This document shows positions 39,491-44,404 of a stretch of 64,000 bases of DNA, one piece after another (the first letter of the stretch is position 1; every line of letters begins with the position of its first letter). A program made the position numbers and the translations under genes. A model generated the notes under the pieces. The model saw only the letters and a list, made by a program, of their open reading frames with translations. It was not told where the DNA came from and made no database searches. Source of the stretch: Stutzerimonas balearica DSM 6083. GTDB lineage: Bacteria; Pseudomonadota; Gammaproteobacteria; Pseudomonadales; Pseudomonadaceae. The stretch lies in NCBI RefSeq assembly GCF_000818015.1, contig NZ_CP007511.1, forward strand, positions 2,490,501-2,554,500, given 5' to 3'.

Positions 39491-41492
39491 TCAGTCAAAC
39501 GTCAGCTTCGCCCCCGCATAAATCGTCCGCCCGGGCGCGGGCTCGTAGTAGCGGCCGAAGTTATCGTTGATGCGCAGGTTGTCGTAGTAGTCGCGGTCCA
39601 GCAGGTTGTCGATGCCGACGTAGGGCTCCCAGCGCTGATCGCCCCACGCCATTCGCCAGCCCAGGCGGGCGTTGGTGACCGCGTAACCGGCCACGCGATC
39701 GCGGTTGGCGTTGTCTGCGTACTGGTCGCCGTAGGCGTTGACGTTGACCCGCGCATACCAATCGTCACGGTCATAGCTGACCTCGGCGAACAGGCTCTGC
39801 CGCGGAATCCCCGGGATGCGGTTGCCGTCGTAGCCCTCGAACTGGTCGAAACGGTAGTGGTTGTAGCTCCAGGCCCCGGTCAGTCGCCAGAAGCGCCCCA
39901 CCAGCCAGTCCCCGCTCAGCTCGACACCGTCGCGACTGGAGCGGCCGGCGTTGGTGTAGAAGGTGCGTCCGTCGACTTCCGGGACCAGCTCGTCCTCGAT
40001 GCGCATGCTGTAGAGCACCGCTTCGTAGCGCAATCCCGGGTACTCGCCTTTCAAGCCAATCTCGCGATTGACCGACTGCGCCGGACCGAGCGAGGGATTG
40101 AAGCCGCCCCCGTTCGGGTTGGCCATTTCGTTGATCGTCGGCGTCTCGAACGAGGTCGCGTAACGCATGTACGCCACATGATGGGCGTCCAGTTGCCGGC
40201 TCAGGCCCAGGCTGTAGTTCCAGTCCTCCAAGGTTGCGCTCGCCCGAGGCATCGCCGTCACTCAGGTAACGGTCCTTCGCCTCGAGCCGCACGCTGTCAT
40301 AGCGCACGCCGGCGGTGAGCAGCCAGGCATCGCCGAGGCTCAGCTGATCCTCGACGAACACACCCCGGCTGTCCGCCGTTTCGCGCTGGCGCTGAGTCAG
40401 GGCGCCGGTGATGCCGCCGGGCAGGTTGTCGTTGCGTGAGCGCTCGTCGCGCTGGCTTTCCAGGTCCATGCCGACCGTTAACTGATGCGGCAGGCCCGCC
40501 AGTTCACGGTGAAAAGTGCGCTGCGCGCCCAGCCCGGCGAACCAGCGGTCATAGGCGGTCTGGCCGTTGTTCTGCAACGGGAGGCGGTTGCTGAACTCGC
40601 GCTGGCCGTAATAGCTGCGCAGCTGGTAGGTATCGTCGCCTGCGGCCTGTCCATCCCAGACCAGCGAGACGCGCTGCTGCTCGACAGTCTCGTCGGAATC
40701 GTACTGCAGGCTCTGCGGCCGTGCCTGGGAACGGTCCGCCCGGACCTGATCCAGCGTCAGGCCACCGGGATCTTCGGCGCGGTTGTCGATTGCATGGAGG
40801 GTGAGCCCGAGCGTGCCGCCCTCCCCCTGCCAGCGCAGCTTGCCAGTGAGGTGGTTGGTTTCGGCGGTGCCGTGCGTGCGGTAGCCGTCGAGCTGTGTGG
40901 CGTTGACGGCGAGCAAGGCACCCAGCGAGCCGGCACTGCCACTGGTTTCCGCACGCATGCGGCGATAGCCCAGTTCGCCGCCGGTCACCTCGACCTGCGT
41001 GAACGGCGTGTCGCCCGGTTCTCGCGTCTGGATCGCCAAGACGCCACCGGCGGCATTGCCGTAGATGGTGGACGACGGACCGCGAATCACCTCGATGCGC
41101 TCGACCAACGCGGTATCCAGCCCATCCATCTCGGTCTGCCCGTCAGGCATGGTCAGCGGCACCCCGTCGACCAGCACCCGCACGCCGCGAACGCCAAAAC
41201 TGGAGCGCGACCCGAAGCCGCGAATGGACAAGCGCATGCCCTGCGCCAGGTTGTAGCGGCTCTGCGAAAGCGCGCCCGGCACAGGCCCGAGCAGGCTGTC
41301 GAGGGTGAGCAACTGCTCGCCGGGCTGGTCCTGCGCCGACACGGCGGACACCGCCATCGGCAAGGTAAACCAGTCGGATTCCGTCCGGGGTGAGCTCACT
41401 ACCAGGGGGTCGAGCGTGAGCGGTTCGCTCGTCTGCGCGAGCAAGGGTGCGGTCGCCAACGAGAGCGATCCGGCAAGAAACAGTCGATACAT
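39491..41492 (-). pseudogene. TonB-dependent outer-membrane receptor, split by a frameshift
   Basis: A full receptor is spread over two frames. The first (from ATG 41492) has a signal peptide ending LLAQ, a TonB-box-like EPLTLDPLVV, and a complete plug (SIRGFGSRSSFG; DGVPLTMPDGQT; IEVIRGPSSTIYGNAAGG). The barrel continues to about RYLSDGDASG, then the frame goes wrong. The remaining 250 residues lie one base ahead (SATLEDWNYSLGLSRQLD through GRTIYAGAKLTFD with terminal Phe-Asp). Removing one base near 40241-40246 restores DASGSATLEDW. This is either a recent loss or a sequence error. The ligand is unknown; iron chelates are likely for this subgroup. Confidence 0.85.
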
Positions 41493-42028
41493 GGTTGAGC
41501 CTTGTTGTTATGGAGTGACGTTGCTGTCGCCGACCTCTGTGAAAAAAGCCTGACCAGAAGAACGCGATTGGGCCGCCTTGGCGCCCAGCGCTCCGGCACA
41601 CCGGTTTCAAACTACAGAAACGACCTGAAGCGGGGAATCCTCCCTTAGCGTCATCAAGGCAACGCACATGCCAAGCCACTTGAGCCACCACCAACTGCGG
41701 TTCGCGTATTCGACATGGCCCAACGGCCACCGGTCCTGCTGACGTGGGCACGTCGTTCTTAATCGCTCGGTTCTGCAAGCAGTCTGCGGGAAGCGGGTCA
41801 GGAGTCGCCGCGTCCCCGTAGCGACGCGACAGCTGTCGCCGCCGTGAACGGTCAGGTTGCGACACGTCGCTTCAACCTCGACGCCCATGGACCGCGCAAC
41901 GCCGCGCCATCGCGGGCGTAGCAACCCAATCGCAACGGCGACACCCCCGAATCGAGCCCGCCGTAGCCCTGCGATCGGTCCGCAGTTAGACCCGCGATTA
42001 GCGCTGAGCGAGCCATCGTGCCGGCCTA
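41493..42028. other. Spacer upstream of the TonB receptor and SoxR cassette
   Basis: About 540 bp without a convincing gene. An open minus-strand frame across 41607-42080 has no ribosome binding site or recognisable protein pattern. I looked for a cobalamin riboswitch and a Fur box near the receptor start and saw neither clearly. A TTTTTT run after a GC-rich patch near 41545-41600 may be a leader structure. Confidence 0.4.
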
Positions 42029-42059
42029 TTGACCTCAAGTTCACTTGAAGTCCTAGAGT
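42029..42059 (+). promoter_or_regulatory. SoxR-type promoter with SoxR box
   Basis: The -35 TTGACC (42029-42034) and -10 TAGAGT (42054-42059) are 19 bp apart, the long spacing typical of MerR-family activated promoters. Between and overlapping them, CCTCAAGTTCACTTGAAG (42033-42050) matches the SoxR consensus CCTCAAGTTAACTTGAGG at 16 of 18 positions. soxR itself is the third gene downstream. Confidence 0.85.
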
Positions 42060-42124
42060 CGCTCGCGTCGGGCCTGGCAACCGTTGCCTGCCTTCCCTGC
42101 TTGTGGATCAGGATCAAAGCGCCG

Positions 42125-42733
42125 ATGTGCGATTTAAATGAGATATTCCTGGATACCGGCGACCTGTCGCCCGCGCCCTCCATTGTCTCGCCGGCCTCCA
42201 TGCCAGATGGCGGTATGAGGGTCCGCCGGGCGGCGTGTCGCGATCTGCTCGCCTTGTTCGCGATTCACCGGGCGCTGTTCTTGCCGCACATCGCCCGGCT
42301 CTGGGGCTGGGATGAACGTTGGCAGCGCGCCAATTTTCTAGAGCAGGTGGCCACGGCCAGCACCTGGGTCGTGGAGAGCGATTCGGGCATCGCCGGCTAT
42401 CTGCAGTTCGAGGAACAGGCCCGGCGAATCTACCTGCGCAACATCGCACTGGTACCGGCGTACCAACGGCGGGGAGTCGGTACCCGGCTGGTGGAGGCCC
42501 TCAAGACGAAGGCGTCAGCACGCCGCATCCCCCTGACGCTCAGCGTGTTCAGGACGAACCTGGCAGCCAGGCGGTTCTATGAGCGCCAGGGGTTCACCGC
42601 TACGCACGAGGCGCGCACCCATATCGACATGCGCTGGGTGCGCCCCGGCGCAAGCGATCAATGCCCGGGCAGCGGTACTGACCGGGTCGATTCGATGATG
42701 ACTGTGCATGGATCGCAGTCAGTCGATGGCTGA
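42125..42733 (+). CDS. GNAT family N-acetyltransferase, predicted SoxR target
   Basis: This protein of up to 202 residues has a GNAT core: IYLRNIALVPAYQRRGVGTRLVEALKTKA (acetyl-CoA loop RRGVGT) and NLAARRFYERQGF near the end. The start is uncertain: the ATG at 42125 has AGGA 11 bases upstream and is 66 bp from the -10, whereas ATGs at 42200 and 42215 lack a good site but give a more usual GNAT N-terminus (MRVRRAACRDLLALF). It is the first gene behind the SoxR box and is followed by a LysE-type exporter and soxR. Confidence 0.82.
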   Translation: MCDLNEIFLDTGDLSPAPSIVSPASMPDGGMRVRRAACRDLLALFAIHRALFLPHIARLWGWDERWQRANFLEQVATASTWVVESDSGIAGYLQFEEQARRIYLRNIALVPAYQRRGVGTRLVEALKTKASARRIPLTLSVFRTNLAARRFYERQGFTATHEARTHIDMRWVRPGASDQCPGSGTDRVDSMMTVHGSQSVDG

Positions 42734-42800
42734 GACTTCCTGGCTCATGGCTGTCAGTCGAAAGCCCGTCGTTTCCGGTCGACCGCACCCGGAGGAACCC

Positions 42801-43397
42801 ATGCCCTCGGAAACCCTGCTTGCCTTTGTGACCTATGCCTTCGTGACCTCAATCACCCCCGGCCCGAACAACACCATGCTGCTGGCGTCCGGTTTGAACT
42901 ACGGTTTCGTCCGCAGCTTGCCGCACGTCCTGGGCATCAGTATCGGCTTTGCGGTACTGGTGATGGGCGTGGGCGCGGGCCTGGGGCGCCTCTTCGAGGC
43001 CTTCCCTGCGCTGTACGCTCTGCTGCGGATCGTTGGCGCGGCCTACTTGCTATATCTGGCCTGGCAGATCGCGACGGCCGCACCGATGCAGGATGCTTCG
43101 GCGCCGGGGCGTCCTTTCGGCTTCTGGAAAGCGGCGGGCTTCCAATGGGTCAATCCCAAGGCCTGGATCATGGCTATCGGAGCCATCACGGCCTATCTGC
43201 CGGCCGGTGGCGGCGTGCAGGCGGTCGTGGTGCTCGCGCTGCTCTTTGCCCTCGTCAACGCGCCCAGCGTGGTGGTTTGGGTCACCTTTGGCACCACGCT
43301 ACGCCGCTGGCTGACCGATACGCGCCATTTACGGCTCTTCAATATCGCGATGGCCTTACTGCTCGTACTGTCGCTGCACCCACTGCTGCTCGGGTAA
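42801..43397 (+). CDS. LysE/RhtB family exporter
   Basis: This 198-residue inner-membrane protein has about six hydrophobic segments and the family signature TSITPGPNNTMLLASGLNYG near the N-terminus, followed by GFQWVNPKAWIMA. LysE/RhtB proteins export amino acids or related small molecules. GGAGG lies seven bases before the ATG. It stands 67 bp after the acetyltransferase and 86 bp before soxR, so the three are probably one transcript. Confidence 0.9.
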   Translation: MPSETLLAFVTYAFVTSITPGPNNTMLLASGLNYGFVRSLPHVLGISIGFAVLVMGVGAGLGRLFEAFPALYALLRIVGAAYLLYLAWQIATAAPMQDASAPGRPFGFWKAAGFQWVNPKAWIMAIGAITAYLPAGGGVQAVVVLALLFALVNAPSVVVWVTFGTTLRRWLTDTRHLRLFNIAMALLLVLSLHPLLLG

Positions 43398-43483
43398 GGG
43401 CGTATCGGTCGGTTCATGCGGCTGCCTGCCCATGGCTGAACCACCAATCAGCGTCTTCGGATCCGATTCGGGAGGACCAAGCG

Positions 43484-43960
43484 ATGGCCGGGAAAGCCAC
43501 CCACAAGGACCCTTTGCTACCGATTGGCGAAATCAGCAAACGCAGCGGAGTTGCCGCCTCGGCCCTGCGCTATTACGAATCGCTCGGCTTGATCAGTTCG
43601 TCCCGCCAGGGCACCAGCCGGCGCTATTTCCCGCGTTCGACGCTGCGCCGCGTGGCGTTCATCATCTTTGCCCAGAAGATCGGCTACTCGCTCGAGGCAA
43701 TCGGTCAACAGCTGGCTTGCCTGCCCACCGACAAGCTGCCGACGAACAGGGATTGGCAGGCGCTATCTCGCGGCTGGAAGCAGCAGGTTGCCCAGCGCAT
43801 CAGGGAATTGCAGCGACTCGATATGGATCTCGATCACTGCATCGGCTGCGGCTGTCTCTCGCTGCAGCGCTGCAAGCTGGCCAACCCCAACGACTTGGCC
43901 GGCAACTATGGGTCCGGCCCTCTGCGATGGCTCGCGGACGAGATGCCCGAGCACGAGTAA
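43484..43960 (+). CDS. soxR: Redox-sensitive transcriptional activator SoxR
   Basis: This 158-residue MerR-family sensor has an N-terminal winged helix (IGEISKRSGVAASALRYYESLGLI), a dimerisation helix, and the [2Fe-2S] site with Cys at 119, 122, 124 and 130 (CIGCGCLSLQRC), the same numbering as in E. coli SoxR. Oxidation of the cluster by redox-cycling compounds activates target promoters. GGAGGA lies eight bases before the ATG. A SoxR box lies 1.4 kb upstream at the head of this gene run, implying autoregulation. Confidence 0.96.
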   Translation: MAGKATHKDPLLPIGEISKRSGVAASALRYYESLGLISSSRQGTSRRYFPRSTLRRVAFIIFAQKIGYSLEAIGQQLACLPTDKLPTNRDWQALSRGWKQQVAQRIRELQRLDMDLDHCIGCGCLSLQRCKLANPNDLAGNYGSGPLRWLADEMPEHE

Positions 43961-44404
43961 AAGCGCATCAATTTCAGTTCCCGATCCGGAGCTACTGATC
44001 GACGTCCATGCTGGGCGCGATTTGTTTTGCCCGTCAGAAAGCCACCACCCTCGCCTCGTAACCGTTTCCCTTGCCATTGCCCAGATCCGTTGGGAACTCT
44101 GGTGGTAGCCAGCCCCCGCACCCTGTCCCCACTATGGGCAGGACACAGGCTCCAGCGCGGCGTGGTTTCGAACATCCAGGCAAGGGTGGTCAGCGGAACA
44201 AGTAGGCACAAGCCGACGTCGAGGTGTAGTCCAGATCCAGCGCGCCCCCGTGACCTTGCCTCCGGCACAGCGCCAGTCCAGGTCCGGAACAGGTGGCGGC
44301 TCATGTCGCAGGCGAACCAGGGACCGGTCATCACGTTCTGAAGCGACGCAACCTCTGGCTTCAGCTGATGCGCCAAATCTTCCGCACGGGTTTTCGGCGG
44401 GCAC
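43961..44404. other. Spacer between soxR and the tRNA terminator
   Basis: About 440 bp. Open frames exist on both strands (for example 43906-44406 minus) but none has a ribosome binding site or recognisable protein pattern. It may be degraded DNA near a tRNA locus. No direct repeat of a tRNA end was seen. Confidence 0.4.

Follow-up and report, generated by a model that had tools for sequence, protein, structure and literature searches.

A putative one-operon SoxR regulon of an acetyltransferase, a LysE-family exporter and SoxR itself in Stutzerimonas balearica

Introduction

Does a SoxR regulator whose gene lies third in a row, behind a promoter of the kind that SoxR activates, control that whole row and itself with it? 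The question is raised by a locus of Stutzerimonas balearica DSM 6083 at which a SoxR box is followed, on one strand, by genes for a GNAT acetyltransferase, a LysE/RhtB-family exporter and SoxR (the trio). The locus lies in a stretch of 64,000 nucleotides (the window; NZ_CP007511.1, positions 2,490,501 to 2,554,500), part of a 4.38-Mb single-contig genome. An initial annotation of this DNA had described the trio as one autoregulated cassette in which the acetyltransferase modifies a redox-active, amine-bearing compound and the exporter removes it. Among the papers listed by literature searches, none had the trio in its title or the opening of its abstract. On balance we favor, with moderate confidence, a one-operon SoxR regulon of mosaic origin, in which SoxR activates the acetyltransferase gene, the exporter gene and its own gene, and the products may carry out an amine acetylation and export.

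Results

A conserved SoxR-type promoter precedes the trio

The promoter (TTGACCTCAAGTTCACTTGAAGTCCTAGAGT; Table 1) combines, by sequence comparison, the features of a SoxR-activated promoter: the box lies between the -35 and -10 hexamers, the spacer is over-long at 19 bp, and the arrangement is kept in relatives. The box differs at 2 of 18 positions from the consensus CCTCAAGTTAACTTGAGG, which is that of Escherichia coli (PMC4411124). Both the match and the spacing given in the initial annotation were confirmed. In a search of the window with CCTCAAGTTNACTTGAGG, the box, matched on both strands, was the sole site at three or fewer mismatches, against 0.02 expected from shuffled sequences. Profile searches also upheld the identities of the three same-strand genes.

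Table 1. Features of the trio locus, in positions of the window.
Feature	Position	Strand	Remarks
-35 hexamer TTGACC	42029..42034	+	identical in all 4 species
SoxR box CCTCAAGTTCACTTGAAG	42033..42050	+	16/18 to E. coli consensus
-10 hexamer TAGAGT	42054..42059	+	19 bp from -35; identical in all 4 species
GNAT acetyltransferase, 202 amino acids	42125..42733	+	PF00583, 61.5 bits; orthologues
LysE/RhtB-family exporter, 198 amino acids	42801..43397	+	PF01810, 61.1 bits
soxR, 158 amino acids, motif CIGCGCLSLQRC	43484..43960	+	TIGR01950, 168.4 bits; cut-off 116.9
Terminator-like hairpin directly after soxR	44003..44017	+	consensus match only

The genome search that had been proposed for the same trio behind a SoxR box recovered it, with its promoter, in four of the 56 Stutzerimonas genomes compared, among them that of DSM 6083 (G000). 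The other three were G012, G015 and G029. Trio-type soxR (86-100% identity), GNAT matches at E 1e-8 or better and LysE matches at 87% identity or more were each found in exactly these four genomes, in which gene order, strand and the 19-bp spacing agree throughout. The lack of a conserved box upstream of homologous clusters had been named beforehand as a refuting outcome; a box was present in all of them, though weaker in G012, G015 and G029, where it departs from the E. coli consensus at 3, 4 and 4 positions, compared to 2 in G000. When the four species are aligned, 24 of the 31 columns of the promoter are invariant, compared to 2 of the 76 columns that directly precede it; the downstream count (1 of 54), made without gaps, is an underestimate, and the upstream figure alone was used. 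A stop inside the G015 GNAT match falls after the GNAT domain. A chance match of the box was ruled out on the excess over shuffles and on the conservation of promoter and gene order in four species, and on the same grounds it is extremely improbable that the genes are adjacent by chance behind such a match.

To look for other targets, a degenerate pattern of the whole promoter was drawn up from the four trio promoters themselves. At zero mismatches it occurred nowhere else in the four genomes; at two mismatches it had two additional sites, one in G000 and one in G012. The reversed control matched once in G000 and not at all in G012, G015 and G029. Because no other zero-mismatch site was present, SoxR probably runs a single operon and activates its own gene within it. 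The proposal of one SoxR-run, autoregulated cassette thereby gains support, given the order, promoter and spacing kept in all four genomes.

A consensus search of G000 gave a second two-mismatch site (G000:C1:682314, L010), amid open reading frames (ORFs) that we read as phage-like; it was treated as noise, the reversed control pattern having given two matches. A MerR-type promoter-like palindrome (TTGACCTGGAGTTCACTCCAGG...) was also observed at G000:C1:862738-862768; another MerR-family gene, at 863005, lies about 240 bases away. In G012, taken as S. nitrititolerans, a second SoxR-box-like promoter lies directly downstream of soxR (G012:C6:107626-107656; 8349-8366 of L104 in reverse complement). 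It reads CTTGAAGTTTACTCGAGG, with four mismatches, and is followed by TATAAG; the product of the next sizeable ORF on that strand, which lies about 400 bases farther along, is a small membrane-like protein.

The sites of the trio were compared by their flanks. G000 and G029 share the downstream neighborhood (tRNA-Asp/tRNA-Val and gspC/gspD-like genes), and G000 and G015 share an upstream asparaginase gene, so the site may be ancestral in these three genomes. No flank of G012 within the 16 kb examined matched the window. A single MetZ-like marker protein did not group the four genomes together: identity to G000 was 90% in G029, 90% in G015 and 87% in G012, within a spread of 80-92% over the 54 genomes, of 56, that had a match. 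The trio's scattered occurrence would be accounted for if it had been lost, or passed on, among members of the genus.

The trio SoxR falls among Burkholderiales proteins

The product of the third gene aligned with the E. coli SoxR structure 2zhg (E 1.1e-34), exceeded the curated equivalog cut-off of TIGR01950 and carries all four cluster cysteines (C-x2-C-x-C-x5-C) at the aligned positions, as previously annotated. The annotation had appealed to what is known of SoxR in pseudomonads. That framing calls for revision: the protein, a true SoxR, is not of the type of the other Pseudomonadaceae sampled. The best 30 matches to TIGR01950 in the Pseudomonadaceae sample scored 234.6-244.1 bits, compared to 168 for the trio protein. 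A tree of 69 rows hand-picked from 155 distinct sequences was built by a quick method, and several of its long branches were flagged. In it the trio SoxR belonged to a 22-row clade (SH-like approximate likelihood ratio test, SH-aLRT, 99) whose other members were Burkholderiales (Achromobacter, Bordetella, Burkholderia) or taxonomically unlabelled; the 10 other Pseudomonadaceae rows and the congeneric proteins of G008, G043 and G044 lay outside it. By this placement the trio soxR is of a Burkholderiales type.

In five loci of this clade (L013, L014, L016, L017 and L018) soxR faces RND-pump genes, by our reading of the translations. The adaptor gene was readable in L013, L016 and L017, partly so in L018, and masked by an antisense ORF in L014. 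Since these relatives face pump genes, the sequences suggest that soxR has given up an RND pump as its partner and taken on a LysE exporter. In the direction leading away from soxR, six operators of this clade read CTT(C/G)AAGTTNNCTT(T/C/G)AAC and depart from the E. coli consensus at 5-7 positions. At their ends the operators of the trio have CTTGAAG or CTTGAAC, not CTTGAGG, and the boxes of the six relatives and the trio have the right half CTTNAAC or CTTNAAG in common. The recognition region of the clade differs both from that of E. coli and from those of other Pseudomonadaceae, reading SALRYYESLGLI and QGTSRRYFPRS in the window protein and SALHFYESKGLI and NSGNQRRYKRD in E. coli. In the shared operator half and the divergent recognition region, regulator and operator are consistent with each other.

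Elsewhere in the genus, G008 and G044 carry another soxR with RND-type pump genes and a box one mismatch from the consensus, which lies beside soxR in G008, whereas in G044 it precedes the pump genes and is some 7 kb distant from soxR. The soxR stretch of G043 had no box at three or fewer mismatches. SoxR-like matches in G023 and G041 (34-35%) were set aside, as their ORFs look to us like CueR beside a CopA-type ATPase; these proteins are not among the TIGR01950 matches listed. In SoxRS systems of the E. coli type, soxR is divergent from soxS, the gene of an AraC-type activator. The trio has a different layout, with soxR third on the same strand after the GNAT and LysE genes.

The exporter groups with proteins of plasmid stress cassettes

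The exporter belongs to the LysE/RhtB family by its PF01810 score (cut-off 25.6 bits). Its nearest NCBIfam model is the EamB cysteine/O-acetylserine exporter (NF007653), at 106.3 bits against a cut-off of 193. The closest relatives outside the trio (65-81%) come from scattered hosts, including Pseudomonas aeruginosa, Serratia, Klebsiella, Comamonadaceae and Achromobacter. Plasmid matches at E 1e-40 or better comprised 22 records, 15 of them Klebsiella, and the trio proteins sat with the plasmid group (SH-aLRT 99) in a 72-row tree made by a quick method.

Gene contexts were read in 6 of the 22 plasmid records, and in these no GNAT match lay beside the LysE gene. On the Pseudomonas nitroreducens plasmid pPniHBP1_1 (L191) the order is MocR-type regulator, DoxX, ClpP-like protein, glutathione S-transferase (GST), LysE and hydrolase. 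Two Klebsiella plasmids (L192 and L193) carry MocR-type, DoxX, ClpP-like and LysE genes with GST remnants and insertion sequence elements. We also observed on pPniHBP1_1 a soxR gene (L191:6904-7378; 200.8 bits to TIGR01950) about 1.3 kb after LysE, which is absent from the PLSDB gene table, an incomplete one. A box three mismatches from the consensus lies between this soxR and a second DoxX gene facing it.

The nearest model and the plasmid neighbors together suggested that thiol conjugates are the cargo. In such a mercapturate-like route, quinone-type redox cyclers would form thiol adducts, the GNAT enzyme would N-acetylate the cysteine S-conjugate, and the EamB-like exporter would expel it. 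The same model was nearest for two relatives, one of them plasmid-borne and the other soxR-linked, and the LysE genes on pPniHBP1_1 and both Klebsiella plasmids adjoin a GST gene or its remnant. The exporter nevertheless scored far under the EamB cut-off, no GST lies within the Stutzerimonas trio, and the plasmid contexts that were read lack the GNAT partner. We hold this route to be very unlikely. A broader proposal, in which amine- or cysteine-bearing adducts of redox cyclers are N-acetylated and exported through an EamB-like LysE carrier, under a self-reinforcing Burkholderiales SoxR that came to the operon by partner exchange, is distinctly unlikely when taken as a whole.

The acetyltransferase appears lineage-specific

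The first gene product has the profile match, acetyl-CoA loop and fold of the GNAT superfamily and is 99% identical to P0001, a protein recorded as Stutzerimonas balearica. Its start is most likely the ATG at 42125, because the P0001 record starts there and alignment with the other species suggests the same. A TTG-started frame at 42029 was rejected as a mechanical ORF only. A peptide at the N terminus (MC..NE..LD.G; window 42125-42200) is conserved in G000, G012 and G029 and predicted to be disordered, as is the variable linker that follows it.

Among 5.8 billion proteins, 11 relatives were found at E 1e-10 or better, two of them below 50% identity and three with Stutzerimonas names; this search recovers a relative only through exact word matches to the query, and 11 is an incomplete census. 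More distant homologues at E 1e-12 or better were present in 27 of 369 genomes of the class. When 29 loci of these distant homologues were searched by tblastn, no match to the LysE or SoxR protein of the window was obtained; the number 29 excludes the window's own locus and one further listed match that had no locus. From these searches the acetyltransferase looks lineage-specific.

The protein scored below the cut-off of all 13 NCBIfam models that it matched, including RimI (52.3 bits, cut-off 86.4), AAC(3)-I (25.8, cut-off 200) and ArsN2 (36.1, cut-off 125). The AlphaFold2 model of P0001 has a mean predicted local distance difference test score of 80 and is confident over about residues 30-175, with disordered ends. 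A structure search with this model returned NatD as best match, with PaiA and RimI in the first ten. The structural matches are generic, and no substrate is readable from the predicted fold.

These names call up another reading, in which the enzyme acetylates a protein (RimI- or NatD-like) or a polyamine (PaiA-like) in stress physiology while the LysE protein carries an amino acid unconnected with it out of the cell. Matches of this kind are common to the fold in general, and the RimI score is below its cut-off. The polyamine variant is made less likely by E. coli, in which spermidine, as reported in part of PMC9038194, does not activate SoxR and even blocks its induction by menadione. We judge this reading unlikely. 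Acetylation of a redox-active amine and export of the product by LysE is plausible as a putative function. PF03284, used to look for phenazine genes, matched in none of the four trio genomes and in none of 14 control genomes either, so an absence of phenazine genes is not established.

Points against a single self-activated operon

Several observations weigh against the one-operon reading. The gaps of 67 and 86 bp exceed those of tight operons. Since the gaps are long and the consensus scan for promoters is blind to some promoters, such as those with 19-bp spacing, soxR may have a promoter of its own. Further SoxR targets with weaker boxes are possible as well, because boxes like those of G015 and G029 escape a genome-wide consensus search at three mismatches. 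A LysE match (E 1e-4) was present in only 2 of 80 soxR loci, that of the trio (L012) and L049; the GNAT match was confined to L012. Apart from the trio, the 26 top-ranking LysE loci (L197-L222) contained no soxR over about 1.5 kb on each side, and five of them contained a MocR-type match.

In favor of the reading, soxR and LysE are neighbors elsewhere too: on pPniHBP1_1, in L049 and, among 398 Pseudomonadaceae genomes, in at least five, which all belong to genus g15 (L223-L227). Five is a minimum, as listed matches were compared by eye and the 398 genomes are a sample of the family. In the g15 genomes an ABM monooxygenase gene, a small lipoprotein-like ORF and LysE (62-65%) are collinear and face soxR. 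Two features of these loci tell against the reading: a box at four or fewer mismatches was present in just two of the five loci, and the five LysE genes lie in another part of the LysE tree than those of the trio, so their linkage to soxR is not orthologous to that of the trio. Of these LysE genes, three are almost the same, a fourth is close to them and the fifth stands farther off, so the five neighborhoods represent one or two events. In L049 (3943-5527), from a Rhodobacteraceae metagenome-assembled genome, a soxR has a box one mismatch from the consensus, and a LysE gene (34%) lies about 560 bases downstream on the opposite strand. These comparisons suggest that the SoxR-LysE neighborhood is uncommon and has arisen more than once.

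In a rival reading, SoxR controls the GNAT and LysE genes as an ordinary target that happens to adjoin its regulator gene, while soxR itself is autorepressed or has a weak promoter of its own in the LysE-soxR gap, and positive feedback does not occur. The 86-bp gap before soxR leaves room for such a promoter, that gap varies in length and sequence among the four species, and in Stenotrophomonas maltophilia soxR is described as autorepressed and constitutive (in part of PMC4411124). Yet the consensus scan of 41500-44400 returned no promoter-like site (0.5 expected), although it misses the 19-bp-spaced SoxR promoter too, and neither gap held a promoter-like or terminator-like match. A second box at four or fewer mismatches was likewise missing from the stretches searched of G000, G015 and G029. 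We regard separate control of soxR as possible but doubtful, and retain the reading of one self-activated operon.

Surroundings of the operon

The hairpin after soxR was one of six terminator-like matches in 41500-44400, against 2.1 expected. Because three of the matches on the + strand fall within genes (42255, 43226 and 43639), such a match means little by itself. With a GC content of 0.636, the trio scarcely differs from the window (0.648), and base composition therefore gives no sign of recent arrival. Beside the cassette, on the minus strand (39491-41492), a TonB-dependent-receptor-like gene lies in two frames that overlap at 39771-40261; it appears frameshifted, either naturally or by sequencing error.

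Discussion

We propose that SoxR sits on the box between the -35 and -10 hexamers and that, when a redox cycler oxidizes its [2Fe-2S] cluster, the over-long spacer is distorted so that RNA polymerase can transcribe the operon. Activation of an over-long promoter by oxidized SoxR is established SoxR biology (described in parts of PMC4411124 and PMC4146615). The GNAT, LysE and soxR genes would be made as one message, and the layout, with soxR inside the activated transcript, would provide positive feedback on its own gene. The acetyltransferase may then N-acetylate an amine-bearing toxic compound, or an amine-bearing product formed from it in the cell, and the exporter may remove the acetylated product. 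This chemistry is the weakest step of the mechanism.

The closest likeness to the promoter is the mfsA-soxR locus of S. maltophilia, where a box between TTGACC and a -10 hexamer 19 bp apart drives an exporter gene beside soxR; there, as far as the relevant part of PMC4411124 describes it, soxR is head-to-head with an MFS pump gene and autorepressed. In the trio, one promoter precedes all three genes, of which the GNAT gene comes first and soxR last, and the exporter is of LysE type. The nearest named soxR genes outside the group (61-76%) are those of the Achromobacter, Bordetella and Candidatus Burkholderia loci, which have a related operator but differ in the divergent orientation of soxR toward RND-pump genes, in lacking a LysE or GNAT match and in operators far from the E. 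coli consensus. The g15 loci resemble the trio in that a LysE gene, broadly of one family with that of the trio, is collinear with a gene that faces soxR, but their SoxR is only 44-46% identical, ABM replaces GNAT, soxR is divergent and LysE belongs to another branch. The pPniHBP1_1 cassette has a LysE at 75-76% with soxR nearby and a box before soxR, but it contains the MocR-type, DoxX, ClpP-like, GST and hydrolase genes, its box serves DoxX, and it lacks a GNAT match.

In function, the likeness is to Streptomyces coelicolor, which has a small SoxR regulon of modifying enzymes and a transporter. Its targets differ in being several and dispersed, and its soxR is not autoregulated according to the sections of PMC4146615 that treat the regulon; about 13% of other Streptomyces soxR genes also bear a potential box, as given there. 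The word acetyltransferase is absent from the main text of that paper.

Taken by its parts, the operon looks like a mosaic of a Burkholderiales-type soxR, an exporter of the plasmid-stress-cassette clade and a lineage-specific acetyltransferase. The layout appears to be a new combination of familiar parts, in a gene order that is unusual for SoxR-controlled modification and efflux. SoxR regulons vary between bacteria, and in antibiotic producers they have been interpreted as a means to process and transport redox-active metabolites (PMC4146615). A SoxR with apparently one operon, which holds a modifying enzyme and an exporter, would offer a small system in which to test how inducer and substrate are connected.

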